DNA from: Parapedobacter tibetensis
Lineage (GTDB): Bacteria > Bacteroidota > Bacteroidia > Sphingobacteriales > Sphingobacteriaceae
Assembly (NCBI RefSeq): GCF_024704835.1
Contig: NZ_JAMXBE010000011.1
Coordinates: 132,435-196,434, forward strand
DNA length: 64,000 nucleotides
Direction of reading: 5' to 3'
Part shown: positions 3,517 through 57,299 of the stretch, one piece after another
Numbering within the stretch: the first letter of the stretch is position 1
How the letters are laid out: each line of letters opens with the position of its first letter
Position numbers and translations under genes: made by a program
Notes under the pieces: model-generated
The model's database searches: none
Told to the model about the DNA's origin: nothing
What the model saw: the letters and a program-made list of their open reading frames with translations, nothing else

Positions 3517-5982
3517 TTAAAACAACCTTAAACCAATCCTAACCGCATCCTTTCCTCGCAAGCCTACTTCTGAGCCGAATGACCGCGCATAAATTACACG
3601 GAAGTTTTGCCATTGGAGACCAAAATGGGCTTCCCCATAATGATCGGTTTCCGAAGTGTGCAGGTAATGCAGCCCAATGATTTCCTGTAATTTGAGCTTA
3701 CGGAGCAGGGGCACTTTACTGGTGAGCACGGTAGCGAGGTTATATTCGCCGTGCGCTTCCGCAAAACTCCCTGCAGTGCTGTGTTGATAGTAATCTAGCA
3801 GGAGGAAGGTCCTTAGTTCCTGCTCACTGATGAGTGTCTGCGTGCCGTTGAAATGCCTACGATCTATGTAATATACTTGGCTCCTGTTTAGGAATGTCCC
3901 TACTGCTGCGGAAAATGACATATGGCCGTACAGCCCCAATGCGATTTTTGACTTGTCTAATCCAGCAATAAACAAATCATAATCCACATCCGACCCGAAA
4001 ACATTCGGGATGCCTTTAGTGTAATTCACGGACAGCGTAGGCCATTTCGATGGAAGGTATACCCTACGATGTGGGTACGTTTCATATGTTGTGCCGAAAT
4101 CATAACTGAGCCCCAAGGAAACGTTGAACGATTGGTTCTCTTCAAATAGCGGTATGTCTTCCTCTGGCATAAAAGGATTATTTGACGTAAGGTGCTGCCT
4201 ATTCCGCTCCCAAAAGGTATAATCGGTGCTGTTTGGCAACCATTGTCGGTTTTCCCATATCGCTGAGGTGGTCAATTTCACATTTCCTGGCAGGGTATAC
4301 TGCCATCTTGCTCCACCAAAAGCGCGTTCGTATAGTTTTAAGTAGTTACGACCAAAAAAGGTTGTGCTGATGGTGTTAAACAGCGGCGGAAGGGACCCTC
4401 GATTGTTCAAGTCTTGCATATCGCTACCCCCATAGATACTGATCGTGCTTTCGCCCAAGGGAAATGTAGTACCCAAATAGCCATTGAATTGTTTGTTGGC
4501 AAAGCCATAACGCGCATTGCCATATAACACAAAATTGCGGTTGAGTACCGTATCTATGCGCTTCGTATAGCGAATCCCGTAGTTCAGCGCCAATCCTTCT
4601 ACGCTGTTGAACAGTATGGAAGTAGCCAATCCGTCGAATGAAAGGAAAGAGCGCTGGGCCCGGTTTCTATGGGTGTATCCCGTGGTGAGGAATCCCATCG
4701 GTTTGAACCGGTTTGATACCTTATCAAGCGAATCTAGGTATTCCTTGGATTCACGCCGCTGCTGGAGACTATCCTTATGGATATAATCCAGTCGCTCTTC
4801 TTCCGTGAGCAACAGCAGACGATGCTCGGCCCAATAGGCCGAATCCTTTTCATTGACACCCTCGGTGATACGCAGCACTTCGTTGAAAAGCCCCTTTTCT
4901 ATATCGGGGTTTGGTGCATAGTCGCTATACACAGCCGCAAAATACCCGCCGATCCGGAATCCGAGCAGTCCACCTACAAAATCAAACCGGATGCTCGAAG
5001 GCTGCCATTGCCCATATTCAAGTGGGATGAATTCCTGTTGGATGGCTAATGTATCGATGATATTGACGCCGGACTCTTTGGTGAGTTGCAGGTTTATACC
5101 ATATATCCGCCAGGTGTCCTCCACGATATAGATATCGCCACGATACAGTGGTTCGACCTTGCGCCGAGGGATCACCTCGATTTTATTGATGATCAGCCCG
5201 TTTTCTTCGCTGCTTCCCAAGTAACGGTAACGGTAATAGCTTAATGCATTGTCTGCGATGGGCGAAACAAATGGGCGGGCGCTCAATCCTTCTATGATGG
5301 GTTGGTGGTTTTCATAGAAATTAAGCTTCAAATCAGAGGCCCTGTTGAAACTAAACGCCCTATTGTTGCCAGAAAAGGTAGAACTAATCATTTCTTCCCT
5401 AAATTCATCGGGCGGCCTTACCGTAATTTGGGATTCGGATTCCGATAAGTACACGATGCCCGTACGATTGGAGTCGAGACCGATTTCCCGACCAATTTGA
5501 TCGATGTCTACCCCAAGAAATTTCTTTGGCGCACGCAATAATCGTTGTACTCCCTTGATGTAAACCTTTGCCGTATAAGGAGTGGCCTCATTCAGGTATT
5601 TCTTGCGATTACGTATGGCTTGCCGAATGATCGCATAAGCAGGGTCCTCTCCTCCGCCGATGACTACTTCATCCAACAGGTAGGATTCCGTGAGAAGCGT
5701 GATCTGGATGTGGGTATCACGGTTTAATGTCACCTGTTCAGCGGTTTGCTTATATCCCACGGCCCTTACCAGGATTTCATGTTCGCCTGATGGCAGCTGT
5801 AGCTTGAACGCTCCTTCGCTGTTGGCTGCGGTGCCTATGGCGGCGTCTTTCTTGTACACGCTCGCAAATGGAACGGGATCGCCCTTTTCGTCTGTTATCA
5901 TCCCGGTCAACTGGTAGGATTGTGCATGAGCAAAGGTGGATGCGATAAAAAGGAGAAGAAGGAGGGTAATGGATCTCAGCAT
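3517..5982 (-). CDS. DUF5686 outer-membrane protein with carboxypeptidase-regulatory domain
   Basis: Starts with a clear signal peptide (residues 1-20, ending HAQS). A carboxypeptidase-like regulatory domain (about 22-108, with TGMITDEKGDPVPFASV and an LDEVVIGGG linker) is followed by a long DUF5686 region rich in alternating beta-strand sequence that ends in ...RIGLRLF, a C-terminal aromatic residue typical of barrel proteins. It is therefore inferred to be an outer-membrane beta-barrel with a periplasmic plug-like domain. The family is abundant in Bacteroidota and has no established substrate. The 821-residue length is typical. It is transcribed alone. Confidence 0.85.
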   Translation of the reverse strand: MLRSITLLLLLFIASTFAHAQSYQLTGMITDEKGDPVPFASVYKKDAAIGTAANSEGAFKLQLPSGEHEILVRAVGYKQTAEQVTLNRDTHIQITLLTESYLLDEVVIGGGEDPAYAIIRQAIRNRKKYLNEATPYTAKVYIKGVQRLLRAPKKFLGVDIDQIGREIGLDSNRTGIVYLSESESQITVRPPDEFREEMISSTFSGNNRAFSFNRASDLKLNFYENHQPIIEGLSARPFVSPIADNALSYYRYRYLGSSEENGLIINKIEVIPRRKVEPLYRGDIYIVEDTWRIYGINLQLTKESGVNIIDTLAIQQEFIPLEYGQWQPSSIRFDFVGGLLGFRIGGYFAAVYSDYAPNPDIEKGLFNEVLRITEGVNEKDSAYWAEHRLLLLTEEERLDYIHKDSLQQRRESKEYLDSLDKVSNRFKPMGFLTTGYTHRNRAQRSFLSFDGLATSILFNSVEGLALNYGIRYTKRIDTVLNRNFVLYGNARYGFANKQFNGYLGTTFPLGESTISIYGGSDMQDLNNRGSLPPLFNTISTTFFGRNYLKLYERAFGGARWQYTLPGNVKLTTSAIWENRQWLPNSTDYTFWERNRQHLTSNNPFMPEEDIPLFEENQSFNVSLGLSYDFGTTYETYPHRRVYLPSKWPTLSVNYTKGIPNVFGSDVDYDLFIAGLDKSKIALGLYGHMSFSAAVGTFLNRSQVYYIDRRHFNGTQTLISEQELRTFLLLDYYQHSTAGSFAEAHGEYNLATVLTSKVPLLRKLKLQEIIGLHYLHTSETDHYGEAHFGLQWQNFRVIYARSFGSEVGLRGKDAVRIGLRLF

Positions 5983-48684: not shown

Positions 48685-49284
48685 TTATAAGATTGCTACC
48701 GTAGAGGCCTCGCGGTCGTCAAATTTGGCCACCCGCTCAATGGAACGGGCAAAATGCTCTTCTACTTCACGTAGGATTGGTAGCGTCTGTTCATTTAATT
48801 CGTTTAATAGGCGGGCATATTTTTTCTTTGAAACTTCAAACCTTTTCATTTCCTTGTTCAATTCGGTCTTCAATAGTGCTTGCAACCGAGCTATTTTCTT
48901 GTTTTCGAATACATCCCTTTCTGCATGCTTTTCGGTATAGAGGGCCGCGATTTCAGCAATTGCCTTTTTGCTTTCTTCCACACGGATTCCCTTGTCGAGG
49001 TCTTGTTGATAAACATTGGTAAAGAAAGCCTTATCGCGTTCAAGTTCGGCATGGTTACCGCGGCTTTCTTTGATACGAGCTTCTTCCAGTGCATATTGGT
49101 TCCACAGTACATCTACATTTCTTTGGTGGAAGGCCATTTGCTCCTTAAAAGCTTCGATGCTTTTTGAGTCACCCGATAGTTCCTTCTTACTTTCCTTGTT
49201 TGATGCGGCTGACCCGTAGGTACTTGCCGTCCCGTTTCCAATTGCTGCTGCGCAAATCATAGCGCATAATACTAAAGATTTCAT
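48685..49284 (-). CDS. Secreted coiled-coil protein, unrecognised
   Basis: A 199-residue exported protein with a signal peptide cleaved near GNGTAS. The mature part is almost entirely helical and charged, with heptad-like runs (for example ALEEARIKESRGNHAELERD and KTELNKEMKRFEVSKKKYAR), so a coiled-coil or OmpH/Skp-like elongated structure is likely. No cysteine or enzymatic motif is seen. Monocistronic, with its own terminator. The 220 bp upstream (49285-49504) hold no gene I can support. Confidence 0.65.
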   Translation of the reverse strand: MKSLVLCAMICAAAIGNGTASTYGSAASNKESKKELSGDSKSIEAFKEQMAFHQRNVDVLWNQYALEEARIKESRGNHAELERDKAFFTNVYQQDLDKGIRVEESKKAIAEIAALYTEKHAERDVFENKKIARLQALLKTELNKEMKRFEVSKKKYARLLNELNEQTLPILREVEEHFARSIERVAKFDDREASTVAIL

Positions 49285-52545: not shown

Positions 52546-53211
52546 TTAACTCACCACTTGCCCATCCAGGAGTTCGACGATTCGATGACCGTATTCTGCA
52601 TTTTTCTCCGAATGTGTTACCTGTATAATGGTTACACCATCTTCCTCATTGAGCTGCTTGAACAGGTTCATGATGTCCTCTCCCTGTTTGGAGTTGAGGT
52701 TCCCCGTAGGTTCGTCGGCCAGCAGTAACTTGGGCGTAGTGGCCAATGCCCGTGCGATACCTACCAATTGCTGTTGACCTCCCGAAAGCTGTGTGGGAAA
52801 AAGGTCTTTCTTGCCCACGATGCCAAAGCGGTCGAGCAAGTCGCCCACAATGGCCTTACGTTCGCCTCCTTTGAGGTTTTTATAGATGAGCGGTGTCTCA
52901 ATGTTTTCGTATACCGTGAGTTCATCAATCAAGTGGTAGGCTTGGAATACAAAGCCGATATGTTGTTTATAAAGGGCTGAGCGTTGTCTCTCCTTAAGCC
53001 CAAGCACATTTTCATCCATAAAAAGGTATTCGCCCTCATCAGGTTCATCCAAGAGTCCAAAGATATGGAGCAACGTGGATTTGCCTGAGCCCGAAGGCCC
53101 CATGATGGATACGAACTCGCCCTCGGCAATATGGAGGTTGACATCTTTGAGTACGAATGAACGGCTTCCGCCCACGTTGTACCACTTGAATATGTTGTTT
53201 AATTGGATCAT
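52546..53211 (-). CDS. ABC transporter ATP-binding protein (MacB/LolD type)
   Basis: A 221-residue ATPase. Walker A GPSGSGKSTLLHIFG near residue 40, signature LSGGQQQLVGIARAL near 143, and Walker B LLLADEPTGNLNS near 163 are all intact. It belongs to the group that drives FtsX/MacB-type permeases, which do not themselves form a translocation channel but exert mechanical force on periplasmic partners. The likely permease gene (54729-57101) is separated by a divergent MFS gene but shares its promoter module. The stop codon adjoins that of the S41 gene. Confidence 0.93.
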   Translation of the reverse strand: MIQLNNIFKWYNVGGSRSFVLKDVNLHIAEGEFVSIMGPSGSGKSTLLHIFGLLDEPDEGEYLFMDENVLGLKERQRSALYKQHIGFVFQAYHLIDELTVYENIETPLIYKNLKGGERKAIVGDLLDRFGIVGKKDLFPTQLSGGQQQLVGIARALATTPKLLLADEPTGNLNSKQGEDIMNLFKQLNEEDGVTIIQVTHSEKNAEYGHRIVELLDGQVVS

Positions 53212-53247: not shown

Positions 53248-53299
53248 TTTATCTTTTTGCTGAAAACAATTCAAATATATTAATTATCAGGATTGCTAT

Positions 53300-53315
53300 G
53301 CCAAATTCCTTACCA
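53300..53315 (-). promoter_or_regulatory. -24/-12-like promoter of ABC ATPase
   Basis: Minus-strand TGGTAAGGAATTTGGC closely matches TGGTAGTGAATTTGGT upstream of the permease gene (57137-57152). The TGG...TTTGG spacing resembles sigma-54 -24/-12 elements (TGGCAC-N5-TTGC), with G in place of the last C. The start codon is 88 bp downstream. Confidence 0.6.
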
Positions 53316-53368
53316 ATATTACAAAATACTATTAACTAACAGCATACCTAAAACCAGAAAACGTCCGG

Positions 53369-53406
53369 TGTCCGATTCCGAACATATTGTTGTGCGATTC
53401 CGAACA
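53369..53406. promoter_or_regulatory. Paired TGTYCG-N4-CGRACA palindromes
   Basis: Two imperfect palindromes: TGTCCG-ATTC-CGAACA at 53369-53384 and TGTGCG-ATTC-CGAACA at 53391-53406, centres 22 bp apart. Exactly 53 bp separate the first from the TGGTA promoter motif at 53300-53315. The same layout recurs at 57206-57242, so these are probable activator sites for the ABC ATPase rather than for the divergent MFS gene. Confidence 0.75.
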
Positions 53407-53490
53407 TTCTCATTGGCTCGAAAATGAGATAATGCCGTCAGTTTTGTATCATATTTTCGACGAGCCTCTTCCTAATATGCATAAACCAAC

Positions 53491-53498
53491 TATCTTTG
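53491..53498 (+). promoter_or_regulatory. -7 box TATCTTTG of MFS gene
   Basis: Perfect TAnnTTTG box 20 bp upstream of the MFS ATG. A second candidate, TATTTTCG, lies at 53452-53459. Between it and the palindromes is a 7-bp inverted repeat (TCTCATT at 53408-53414 and AATGAGA at 53423-53429). Confidence 0.5.
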
Positions 53499-53518
53499 TG
53501 TACTTTTTACACTAAGAG

Positions 53519-54718
53519 ATGAAAAAAAGTTTATTGTCACTCGCTTTCGGCGGATTGGGTATCGGAATTACCGAGTTTGTTATGATGGGTTTGTTAGAAG
53601 ATATCGCGCGAGACCTTCGTATAGATATCCCGACGGCGGGCCACCTCATTGCCGCGTATGCGCTGGGGGTGGTCATCGGGGCACCTTTGCTAGTCGTGAT
53701 GGCGGGCAAGTATCCACCAAAGCGTATCCTTATCGGCTTAATGGTGTTGTTTACGGTTTTCAATGCCTTTTCCGCATTTGCACCGAGTTACTATACCTTG
53801 CTGATCTCGCGCTTGTTGGCAGGTCTACCCCATGGCGCATTTTTTGGTGTGGGCTCGGTGGTGGCCAGCCGTTTGGCCCAACCGGGGAAGGAAGCCCAGG
53901 CGGTATCCATCATGTTTGCCGGTCTCACCATCGCCAATCTTATCGGCGTACCGCTCGGCACCTATATTGGCCATCATTTCATTTGGCGGTATTCCTTCGC
54001 CATTGTGGTATTGGTAGGGCTCATTACGCTATTATCCTTGAAGCTATGGATGCCTAACCTGCCTGTGAAACAAACAGGAAGCGTAAAATCCCAACTTCGC
54101 TTTTTCAGGCGCAGTGAGGCATGGCTGATTATTGGGATGATCGCCATTGGCACTGGAGGTCTTTTCTCGTGGTACAGCTACATTTCGCCGCTGATGACCA
54201 AGGTGTCGGGCTTTTCAGAGGCTTCCATGACTTACATCCTCATGCTGGCAGGCCTAGGCATGTTTATCGGCAATTTTTTCGGGGGCCGCTTGGCGGACCT
54301 GGTTTCCCCCGCCAAGGCCTCTGTGGTGCTACTCTTTGCGATGGCCGTGGCATTGGTTTCCCAGCGGTATTTGGCGGTCTATCCTGTCCCGTCTTTGGTG
54401 ATGACATTTATTCTTGGTGGCATTGCCTTTGCATTGTCTGCTCCTATACAAATGCTGATGATCAATACAGCCAAAGGCTCGGAAATGCTCGCTGCTTCGG
54501 TGAGTCAAGCGAGTTTCAATATCGGCAATGCCCTCGGGGCCTTTTTGGGAGGCTTGCCCATTGCAATGGGCTATGGCTACGCCTCACCGGAATGGGTTGG
54601 AGCGGTCATGGCCACTTGCGGCGCCTTGTTTGCATTGTGCTTCATTTATCATCGAAGCCAGCGTAATAGCGAGGAACCTATAGTCGTTGGACAGGCCATA
54701 GAAGAAGTTGGTTGTTAG
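53519..54718 (+). CDS. MFS transporter, AraJ-like exporter
   Basis: A 399-residue inner-membrane protein with 12 predicted helices, two halves separated by a short cytoplasmic loop near residues 175-195. The first half has the DHA1 pattern GIGITEFVMMGLLEDIARDL near the N-terminus and RLLAGLPHGAFFGVGSVVAS in helix 4-5, typical of AraJ/YdhP proteins. These are proton-driven exporters of sugars or drugs. It is inserted between the ABC ATPase and permease genes and convergent with the latter. Substrate unknown. Confidence 0.88.
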   Translation: MKKSLLSLAFGGLGIGITEFVMMGLLEDIARDLRIDIPTAGHLIAAYALGVVIGAPLLVVMAGKYPPKRILIGLMVLFTVFNAFSAFAPSYYTLLISRLLAGLPHGAFFGVGSVVASRLAQPGKEAQAVSIMFAGLTIANLIGVPLGTYIGHHFIWRYSFAIVVLVGLITLLSLKLWMPNLPVKQTGSVKSQLRFFRRSEAWLIIGMIAIGTGGLFSWYSYISPLMTKVSGFSEASMTYILMLAGLGMFIGNFFGGRLADLVSPAKASVVLLFAMAVALVSQRYLAVYPVPSLVMTFILGGIAFALSAPIQMLMINTAKGSEMLAASVSQASFNIGNALGAFLGGLPIAMGYGYASPEWVGAVMATCGALFALCFIYHRSQRNSEEPIVVGQAIEEVGC

Positions 54719-54728
54719 CCCTCAACGC

Positions 54729-57101
54729 TTATTCATCCCTAAGCGAATCAATCGGATTGGCGCGTGCTGCGCGTATCGACTGAAAGGCCACCGTAAGCAA
54801 CGAAATAAGTAAAGCCGCCATGCCCGCCACTGCAAACATCCACCATTGCACCGTGATGCGGTAAGCAAACGTGGCCAGCCATCGGTCTACCAACAGATAC
54901 GCCAGTGGCAATGCGATGAGGTTGGCCAACAGAAAAATCCTGAAGAATGGCTTGTTGAGCTGCATAAATAGCTGGTTTACGGAGGCTCCTAAAACCTTAC
55001 GGATGCTCATTTCTTTCTGCCGGATACTAATGCTATAGGCAGACATGCTGAACAGGCCCATTACCGCGATGGCGATGGATAGGAACGTGAATGCACTGAA
55101 CGCAGATTCCAGTTGTTCCTGTTGGGCATGTAGCGCAGCGTATTTCTGGTCGACGAATTCGTATCGGAAATGCTCGCCATCCAATCTGTTGATGGACTTC
55201 CAGTCTTTTTCCAAGGCGATCAACGTCTGCCGTGCCGTACCCGGTTTGATTTTTGCCAGAATCTCGGTTTTGTGCTGCCCGCAGGCGTTGTTGATGGAAT
55301 ATACAGTGGGCTGTACCAGTCGCTCAAACCCTGCCATCTTGCTGTCTTTGACCACCCCTATGATCTGGAAGTCGGTGTCACAGCCGCGGATGGTTTTTCC
55401 GACGGGGTTTTCTATATCGAAGGCTTTCGCCAGCGTTTCGTTGACTAGGGCTCCGCTCACGGAGTCCGCCGCAAACGCTTCGGTGAATGAGTGGCCTTGC
55501 AAGACTTCCATGCCCATCGTTTCCACGTAGTCGAAATCCACGGCAACGTGGTCTGCCTTGTGCACTCCGTTCACATATTCAAATTCCTTTTTCGCTGGGC
55601 CGATTCCTCCCGGAACACTCGTTGCCGCTGTGACATATTCAATTCCCGGGTAGCTTTGCATCCGGTCGCGGAAGGGTTTGAAATCAGATGGGTTGTTCAA
55701 TATCGCGGAATTCTTGATGTACACCACCTGTTCGGGATCGAAACCTTTGTCTCCTTGGCGCATATAGTCAAGCTGCCTGTTGAGGATAAGCATGCCGGTG
55801 ATGAATACAATGGCGATGACAAACTGGAAGGTCAACAGGGAATGGCGGAACCAGGCCGTCCGGTGGCTGGTCTGGAAGTTGCCCTTCAGAATGCTCACCG
55901 GATGGTAGCCCGAGAGGATGATGGATGGGTAGATACCCGATACCATTGCGGTGAGCAGCGCAGCCACCAACAGCTGCCACCCAATCTGGCCCGTCAACGT
56001 GAAGGTGGCCAAATCATAGGCCAGCCATTTCTGCAAGCCATTTTGGCAAAGGACGACTAGGCCCCAAGCAAGCACGGAAGCGAGTAAACATTGGAGCAGT
56101 ACCTCGCCCAGGAATTGCATGGCTAAACGGCTTCGGCTCACGCCGAACATTTTTTTGATGCCGATTTCCTTGGCGCGTTTATTGGCCTGGGCAATCATGA
56201 GATTGGCGAAATTGATGCTGGCCAGTAGCAGGATGATGCCTGAGAGTATTCCCAATGCCCAGACCGTGATATATCCCGTATTCGAGCCATGCTTCGGCCT
56301 CAGATGCAGGTTTTTTAACGGATCAAGATACGTTTCGCCCTTGGCGAATGCCGAAGTGGAGTTGTGGTAATACTGTGAAACTTCTTGTTTATATATTTCG
56401 TTGATTTTCTGGCTTAATCGACGGATATCCGTCCCCGGCTTCACTTGGATAAAAGTTTGGACTTGGCGAGGGTGCCCCACGTTTGCGTCACCGAGGTTTG
56501 GTACAAAAAACACGACTTCAAAGGTGAGGTTGGACAATCCTCGTTCCTTTGAGATGCCATGAATGTAGGGGAATCGCCCAAATTGCTCGCTATGCAAGAT
56601 GATTTGCCGCGGTTCGAACACTTTCTCGGGCGCTTTCGGAAATAACGCTTTGGCGATCTCGGGCGTAATGAGATTCCACTGGGGTTGAGATTGGTCAGCT
56701 ACTGGATTTCCATAGGCTTCAATGCCAAACATCTTTGCAATGGAAATATCGGCCGCCTTCCAATCTTTTACCATTGCTTCGCCGTTGTCGTGGATAAAGG
56801 GTATTTCCCAAGGGAAATAGGAAACCCGACCTACCTCCTCCACTTCCGGGAATTCCGTTTTAATGGCGTCGGCCAATGCCGACGGCGTAACGTCGGTATT
56901 CGTTCCCCGATAAGTCAGCCCTACCAAGTAAATATTCTCATAATTCGGATTCCATTTGTCATAGCTCGTTTCTCGATTGATGTAGAGATAAGCCAATACA
57001 AAACCTGCAAAACCCAGACTCAAACCAAGGATATTTAATGCGGTAAATAGCTTTGATCGAAGCACATTACGCCAAGCAATCTTTAGGTTATTCAAATTCA
57101 T
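54729..57101 (-). CDS. FtsX/MacB-type ABC transporter permease, 790 residues
   Basis: A large permease with an N-terminal helix (about residues 18-40), a periplasmic MacB_PCD domain (about 45-245), an FtsX domain with three helices (about 285-400), another helix near 425-445, a second periplasmic domain, and a C-terminal FtsX domain (about 665-785). The FtsX signatures are visible in RAKEIGIKKMFGVSR and RQKEMSIRKVLGAS. This duplicated form is common in Bacteroidota, often encoded in arrays and linked to peptide or envelope-stress efflux. Expected partner: the ATPase at 52546-53211, with which it shares a promoter and operator module. Confidence 0.9.
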   Translation of the reverse strand: MNLNNLKIAWRNVLRSKLFTALNILGLSLGFAGFVLAYLYINRETSYDKWNPNYENIYLVGLTYRGTNTDVTPSALADAIKTEFPEVEEVGRVSYFPWEIPFIHDNGEAMVKDWKAADISIAKMFGIEAYGNPVADQSQPQWNLITPEIAKALFPKAPEKVFEPRQIILHSEQFGRFPYIHGISKERGLSNLTFEVVFFVPNLGDANVGHPRQVQTFIQVKPGTDIRRLSQKINEIYKQEVSQYYHNSTSAFAKGETYLDPLKNLHLRPKHGSNTGYITVWALGILSGIILLLASINFANLMIAQANKRAKEIGIKKMFGVSRSRLAMQFLGEVLLQCLLASVLAWGLVVLCQNGLQKWLAYDLATFTLTGQIGWQLLVAALLTAMVSGIYPSIILSGYHPVSILKGNFQTSHRTAWFRHSLLTFQFVIAIVFITGMLILNRQLDYMRQGDKGFDPEQVVYIKNSAILNNPSDFKPFRDRMQSYPGIEYVTAATSVPGGIGPAKKEFEYVNGVHKADHVAVDFDYVETMGMEVLQGHSFTEAFAADSVSGALVNETLAKAFDIENPVGKTIRGCDTDFQIIGVVKDSKMAGFERLVQPTVYSINNACGQHKTEILAKIKPGTARQTLIALEKDWKSINRLDGEHFRYEFVDQKYAALHAQQEQLESAFSAFTFLSIAIAVMGLFSMSAYSISIRQKEMSIRKVLGASVNQLFMQLNKPFFRIFLLANLIALPLAYLLVDRWLATFAYRITVQWWMFAVAGMAALLISLLTVAFQSIRAARANPIDSLRDE

Positions 57102-57136
57102 GATCTTTCGTTAAAAATTCAACGTCATCTCATTAT

Positions 57137-57152
57137 ACCAAATTCACTACCA
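57137..57152 (-). promoter_or_regulatory. -24/-12-like promoter of permease
   Basis: Minus-strand TGGTAGTGAATTTGGT, 35 bp upstream of the ATG. It shares TTGGTAnnGAATTTGGYATA with the ABC ATPase promoter. No TAnnTTTG box of similar quality is seen in the same interval. Confidence 0.6.
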
Positions 57153-57205
57153 AATAGTTAACCTACTGTCTTTCAAATAAACGAGACAGCAGGCCATCAA
57201 CAAAA

Positions 57206-57242
57206 GTGTCCGATATCGGACACCTACTGTTCGATTTCGAAC
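57206..57242. promoter_or_regulatory. Paired TGTYCG-N4-CGRACA palindromes
   Basis: TGTCCG-ATAT-CGGACA at 57206-57221 is a perfect palindrome (extending to GTGTCC...GGACAC), and TGTTCG-ATTT-CGAACA at 57227-57242 a near-perfect one, centres 21 bp apart. They lie 53 bp upstream of the promoter motif, the same distance as at the ATPase gene. Probable dimer sites of one activator. Confidence 0.8.
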
Positions 57243-57299
57243 AGTATAATGACTAGTAAATTATTTATGAAATTGGTTGAATATGCCGAATGGGCTGCG

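Follow-up and report, generated by a model that had tools for sequence, protein, structure and literature searches.

Two copies of one regulatory module lie in a 64,000-nucleotide stretch of DNA from Parapedobacter tibetensis (NCBI RefSeq assembly GCF_024704835.1, contig NZ_JAMXBE010000011.1, positions 132,435 to 196,434 of the forward strand; hereafter the window), where they precede the genes for an ATP-binding cassette (ABC) ATPase and a duplicated MacB-like permease. Both sites probably belong to a sigma-54-dependent, NtrC-type regulon for envelope export by duplicated MacB-like exporters. The case is built from sequence: the modules, their geometry and conservation, the genes that they head and the neighbourhood of a candidate regulator in related genomes. 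An initial annotation had proposed that one NtrC-type activator co-induces the ATPase and the permease, and this proposal is supported and appears to extend further than was stated; its weak points are the -12 promoter element and the identity of the activator.

Paired modules in the window and across the genome

Each module consists of two predicted operator palindromes of the form TGTYCG-N4-CGRACA and a sigma-54-like promoter closer to the gene. The elements and genes concerned are arranged as follows.

52546 to 53211, minus strand: stand-alone ABC ATPase gene, MacB/LolD/DarD-like, 221 amino acids (aa; ABC_tran, E 3.8e-33)
53297 to 53316, minus strand: sigma-54-like promoter of the ATPase gene, TTGG at -24, N10, GG at the -12 place (motif match)
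53369 to 53384, minus strand: predicted proximal operator palindrome of the ATPase module (exact match)
53391 to 53406, minus strand: predicted distal operator palindrome of the ATPase module, one mismatch (TGTGCG), centre 22 base pairs (bp) from the proximal
53519 to 54718, plus strand: major facilitator superfamily (MFS) transporter gene, AraJ/Cmx-like, between the ATPase and permease genes (MFS_1, E 1.1e-45)
54729 to 57101, minus strand: duplicated MacB-like permease gene, 790 aa, two MacB_PCD and two FtsX stretches (domain matches)
57134 to 57153, minus strand: sigma-54-like promoter of the permease gene, TTTGG at -24, N10, GG at the -12 place (motif match)
57207 to 57222, minus strand: predicted proximal operator palindrome of the permease module (exact match)
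57228 to 57243, minus strand: predicted distal operator palindrome of the permease module (exact match), centre 21 bp from the proximal

The same layout had been described before both genes, and motif and palindrome pair were indeed found at both, with open reading frames (ORFs) that fit starts at 53211 and 57101. Exact matches to the promoter motif, TTGGTANNGAATTTGGYATA, occur at 53297-53316 and 57134-57153 on the minus strand, with no third in the window at up to three mismatches; in shuffled controls, 2 of 100 gave at least two matches at that tolerance. The palindrome centre spacings of 22 and 21 bp were measured identical to those first given. The gap between motif and proximal palindrome, announced as exactly 53 bp, has that length before the permease gene but is 52 bp before the ATPase gene, where the five-base box ending in TGG begins 51 bp past the proximal palindrome; likewise, three of the four palindromes fit the pattern exactly, but one has a mismatch. 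By sequence, the solved structures nearest to the window permease are MacB chains.

The genome (5.98 Mb, 85 contigs) contains 22 exact matches to the palindrome, whereas a control with the pattern read backwards gave 2. The 22 matches fall in 19 loci, and rather than lying at random positions unrelated to ABC genes, 16 of the 19 head ABC-exporter genes. The promoter motif alone is weak, because the reversed control gives comparable counts (38 forward and 33 reverse matches at up to two mismatches, against 20 and 29). Eleven of the loci lie within a permease-rich 126-kb stretch of contig C12, in which 31 of 32 permease-like ORFs (blastp matches to three of the permeases) stand in same-strand runs, with gaps of up to 400 bp allowed, below one of the 11 modules; one of the 31 is truncated. 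Modules of this array also head one ATPase gene and one HlyD-type adaptor gene; on C8, a TolC-type gene stands behind an exact palindrome whose partner site is degenerate, and single permeases on C56 and C78 carry modules as well. Reading the runs as operons, we infer a regulon of 34 MacB-like permease genes (31 in the array, that of the window and those on C56 and C78), together with two stand-alone ATPases, an HlyD-type adaptor and a TolC. The two modules said to control a split exporter are real but represent only two of about 17 such modules, and the exporter is split in that ATPase and permease are separate genes, but the ATPase is probably common to many permeases.

The geometry of the module was measured in 69 paired examples, 16 of them from this genome and the other 53 from retrieved sequence stretches of seven congeners, which had been picked for palindromes or a permease orthologue and not for promoters. 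Palindrome pairs are spaced 21 bp apart in 46, 22 bp in 21, and 20 and 19 bp in one each. In all 69 modules, with either direction taken, a TGG begins 52-54 bp beyond the proximal palindrome, whereas other three-base offsets, when counted in the same manner, average 6.4 modules and reach 15 at most; the five-base -24 box begins 50-52 bp past the proximal palindrome.

The modules are conserved within the genus. Palindromes occur in every one of the nine genus genomes, with a total of 144 exact ones compared with 13 for the reversed pattern. An orthologue of the window permease (75-78% identity) is present in six of eight congeners, and all six have kept both modules, with at most one mismatch per palindrome. 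Two congeners have no close orthologue of this permease: in G001 the ATPase is kept behind one exact, unpaired palindrome together with a TTGG box, and in G006 it follows another permease behind an imperfect palindrome pair. The permease orthologue of G005 (locus L195, G005:C11:267717) contains an in-frame TAG, with the surrounding permease and ATPase modules intact. At the level of the phylum, at least one exact palindrome occurs in 113 of 198 genomes, mostly at 0-2 per genome; these counts resemble the reversed control, and the operator in its exact form is lineage-specific. More distant Bacteroidota have an asymmetric operator, TGTNCG-N4-TGATAC, in several cases as 22-bp pairs near the same regulator (L120, L123, L134, L140, L185, L186 and related loci). 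In nine genomes this variant gave 35 matches against 17 for its reverse, and 20 of the 30 examined among these 35 have exporter genes within the same 3 kb. The variant data are suggestive: supportive, not strong.

Several observations concern palindromes and permeases that stand apart from this set. One of the 19 loci, on C4, precedes the gene for a 198-aa secreted-looking protein. Two loci were set aside as regulon sites: C85:124100, a single palindrome with no -24 box at the required distance, and C45:16020, a 44-base perfect inverted repeat of different spacing. In the latter (L072, C45:16020-16063), two operator palindromes are spaced by 28 bp and flanked by TTTGG boxes, one 50 and the other 53 bp away, an arrangement that may represent a different, two-way site. 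A long permease at C45:134062, with its own adjoining ATPase gene, has no exact palindrome nearby. Within the C12 array, two truncated permease genes (C12:168721-169053, 110 aa, and C12:247274-248422, 382 aa) are signs of array turnover.

A candidate regulator and its kinase

The genome has one full match to rpoN (C10:19470, E 2.2e-55), a second match falling under the cut-off, and 11 matches to sigma-54 activators over the cut-off, four of them strong (213-233 bits) and seven weak. The favoured regulator, encoded at C3:58653-60005, combines receiver, sigma-54 AAA+ and Fis domains and is thus of the NtrC type; it shares 87% identity with its counterparts in three named Parapedobacter species. 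Directly after it lies the gene for a kinase (C3:60008-61327) that has an HATPase domain and matches PAS weakly; two membrane helices with almost no outer loop can be read in it by eye. As had been noted, the regulator is absent from the window: this pair, the best candidate, is located about 72 kb to its left.

Support for this choice comes from relatives. Among the best 80 of 171 relatives of the favoured regulator obtained from a scan of genome contigs, a kinase relative occurs within 6.5 kb of the regulator orthologue in all 80 loci, directly following it in the 11 that were itemised. Exporter genes lie within the same distance in 70 of the 80, a count that covers orthologues of the C3 regulator only. 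The other ten comprise five Parapedobacter loci (two at a contig end), three in which the regulator is at most 650 bp from the end of the locus, and two others. In Albibacterium, a palindrome stands just upstream of the regulator gene, and orthologues of the ATPase and permease genes of the window come after the kinase gene; palindromes in Sphingobacterium and P. lycopersici occupy the space between a divergent adaptor gene and genes for TolC, regulator and kinase. The 80 loci contain 16 exact palindromes against one in reverse. Widened sites, TGTNCG-N4-(CGNACA or TGATAC), number 93 against 2, and their pairs 16 against 0, in a count that is partly circular because the widening was derived from the same loci. 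With a single rpoN and with regulator orthologues near exporters in most relatives, one NtrC-type activator at a paired enhancer, as first envisaged, is the best-fitting prediction.

In the regulator, the loop known as GAFTGA in enhancer-binding proteins of the NtrC type reads GAFTDA; among the 80 orthologues it is GAFTDA or GAYTDA in 76 and GSFTGA in four, and passages of PMC4641369 list all three as variants that would keep activity. Prediction of the regulator structure from its single sequence gave no usable model (mean predicted local distance difference test score, pLDDT, 34.7). In Parapedobacter soli (L113), a 16-base stretch is repeated three times at 78-bp steps before the regulator gene, near a contig end; such repeats could be a cause of assembly gaps at the locus.

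In the mechanism that we propose, the membrane kinase (C3:60008-61327), which has no recognisable outer sensor domain, would phosphorylate the C3 regulator. The latter would bind the two palindromes, which are separated by some two turns of the helix and centred approximately 85-90 and 105-110 bp upstream of the presumed transcription start, and would then activate sigma-54 RNA polymerase at the -24 box. A signal reaching the kinase would raise the whole exporter set at once, with ATPases, adaptor and channel common to many interchangeable permeases.

Identity of the activator and nature of the promoter

A number of findings weigh against this assignment. The congener G001 keeps five palindromes and paired modules, and no orthologue of the regulator was detected in it at E<=1e-80; positions 1-100000 and 142001-162000 of its 165,714-base contig C38 hold no match to genes of the P. 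tibetensis regulator neighbourhood, and either an assembly gap or a true absence may be responsible, both fitting. The regulator does not lie beside exporter genes in P. tibetensis or in five of the six named Parapedobacter loci (two at a contig end), and its 20-kb stretch is devoid of palindromes at up to one mismatch. A comparison of 17 chosen genomes looked for joint occurrence of regulator and palindrome. Five, from other genera of the same family, have a relative of the regulator (50-68%) and no exact palindrome; among ten from outside the family with at least four palindromes, eight have none above 39% and two have one at 50-54%. A simple co-occurrence across the phylum is unsupported by this comparison. 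Operator class agrees with an arginine or lysine (R/K) residue in the DNA-binding domain of the regulator in 65 of 65 loci (15 of the 80 had no operator), a match of no statistical weight because a single change on the tree constitutes one contrast.

The promoters add to these difficulties. Those of the window carry GG, not GC or GT, at -12, ten bases after the GG of the -24 box, and TG[CT] is found at the -12 place in 32 of 55 modules other than the window type, against one of 14 of the window type; that one (L219, G007) points at the MFS gene, GG being usual in this type. Some adaptor and ATPase promoters, in addition, seem one base short between -24 and -12. The -24 half is thus secure, whereas the two window promoters depart from the canonical form at -12; the sigma-54 promoter claimed for both sites is supported by the GG at -24 and the single rpoN but not by the -12 element, which reads GG and not GC. 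Because of this degenerate -12, the sigma-54 assignment leans on the regulon more than on the window sites.

The retention of modules in G001 would suit a regulon of the same sigma-54 type whose activator is another of the four strong ones, encoded at C12:495309, C45:121413 or C34:132202. These proteins, two with GSFTGA loops and one with GSFTSA, themselves count against the favoured choice, as does the C45 activator, which is encoded about 10.5 kb away from genes for an ATPase and a long permease that have no palindrome nearby; some 4 kb separate the C34 activator from a 406-aa Lol-like permease. However, the 20-kb stretches around all three contain no palindrome at up to one mismatch (the favoured one likewise), and the C3 regulator has orthologues linked with exporters in 70 of 80 loci; we regard control by one of the other three as unlikely. 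The palindromes might, instead, be the target of a repressor or of a regulator of some other type, with the TGG at fixed distance marking a promoter that is not sigma-54 dependent. The degenerate -12 of the window-type promoters would agree with this, as would a distance from palindrome to TGG that is unusually rigid for an enhancer, but TTTGGCRC-N6-TG[CT] is complete in several modules of the array, an activator that works from a distance would fit sites paired at about two turns of the helix and placed well upstream, and the regulator linked to palindromes in relatives is of the NtrC type. This possibility therefore appears quite improbable. A LexA-like identity for the palindromes was set aside on the ground that their half-sites, as we take them to be oriented, face the opposite way.

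A purely local event, in which the MFS gene split an operon and the modules were copied with no wider meaning, is hardly credible. It draws on the TTGGTA..GAATTTGG that the two window promoters have in common, unlike the array modules, and on the absence of the MFS gene from two of the six congeners with the permease orthologue (in the other four it is at the same place). In the two that have no MFS gene, however, both modules persist, the second lying directly between permease and ATPase, which argues that the second promoter is independent of the MFS gene; moreover, 14 more paired modules occur elsewhere in the genome. As a full account, local duplication is refuted by these two observations. 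The window MFS gene, whose product scores under the NCBIfam cut-offs, is at most a candidate member of the regulon. In G007 (L219), the sigma-54 match of the ATPase module at 5633 is better toward the MFS gene (TTTGG-N10-GC), and the MFS gene of that genome may belong to the regulon.

Possible sharing of ATPases, and known export systems

Within the proposed sigma-54 regulon, a small number of ATPases seems to face a large number of permeases. Every one of the nine genus genomes encodes a single close relative of the ATPase of the window (87-96% in the eight congeners) and a single one of the array ATPase, the latter 52-53% identical to the window ATPase, with all others at 46% or less. MacB_PCD matches, to which a duplicated permease contributes up to two and in which ordinary single permeases are included, range from 9 to 83 per genome. 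We infer that two ATPases serve many permeases. A tentative extension, which we hold to be possible though somewhat short of even odds, is plug-in export, whereby two ATPases, one adaptor, one TolC and one kinase-regulator pair power more than 30 interchangeable permeases with different substrates. If true, it would explain the many-copy 'orphan' duplicated permeases of Bacteroidota and supply their missing partners together with a common switch.

Such orphans have been described as ADOP (TIGR03434) duplicated permeases, of which two Dyadobacter genomes have 28 and 33 copies, annotated as orphan and of unknown function in the passages available from PMC11573002. ADOP proteins resemble the present ones in being duplicated permeases of about 800 aa, present in many copies and mostly encoded with no adjoining ATPase gene; they differ in that the window permease scores 252.7 bits, under the TIGR03434 cut-off of 622.3, and in the common control and candidate shared ATPases proposed here. 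With an operator in common, a regulator candidate and no more than two candidate ATPases in each genome, orphan duplicated permeases would become a testable system. MacAB-TolC is similar in uniting a MacB-like permease, an HlyD-type adaptor and TolC, here in one regulon, and dissimilar in that the 221-aa ATPase is here separate from the 790-aa duplicated permease, with many permeases per ATPase. The cut-offs for the darobactin exporter DarBCD were not reached by the window ATPase, for which DarD is the best NCBIfam model (237.4 bits against 375), the array adaptor (174.8 against 450) or the window permease (85.3 against 700).

BceR is an OmpR-like regulator that has no sigma-54 domain. The BceRS-BceAB systems of Firmicutes, as portrayed in parts of PMC5985334, share with the present system a two-helix kinase with almost no outer loop and a link to an FtsX-type permease, whereas here the regulator would be of the NtrC type, acting with sigma-54, and would control dozens of permeases. 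Sigma-54/NtrC-type regulons such as those of Desulfovibrio vulgaris (passages of PMC4641369) are alike in their receiver-AAA+-Fis regulator, kinase, paired upstream palindromes and -24/-12-like promoter, and unlike in that one duplicated-permease family, a near-fixed distance from the sites to -24 and a GAFTDA loop characterize the system described here. In Flavobacterium psychrophilum, mapped sigma-54 promoters serve mainly protein quality control, envelope stress and gliding motility, according to portions of PMC9723704.

Sigma-54 control of this class of permease is already in print as a prediction: from promoter matrices, PMC12316311 (2025) predicts an enrichment of sigma-54 promoters ahead of COG0577 permeases in Bacteroidia, among others; its available passages claim the first such evidence. 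Protein class and sigma factor are the same as here. Those passages name no operator or regulator for the COG0577 permeases, and their list of activators is restricted to GAFTGA proteins, a motif that the GAFTDA-bearing C3 regulator does not have; the present analysis thus proposes a defined operator and a candidate regulator for a link previously predicted from promoter matrices. In the open-access literature, no paper was found with this operator, regulator, regulon or reading of shared ATPases.

A further gene of the window (48685-49284, minus strand) encodes a 199-aa secreted-looking protein, with no Pfam match, that is 55% identical to the 198-aa protein whose gene follows the C4 palindrome. 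Its upstream region has no palindrome at up to two mismatches, and relatives of the protein adjoin modules in G002 and G004 (L231 and L253).

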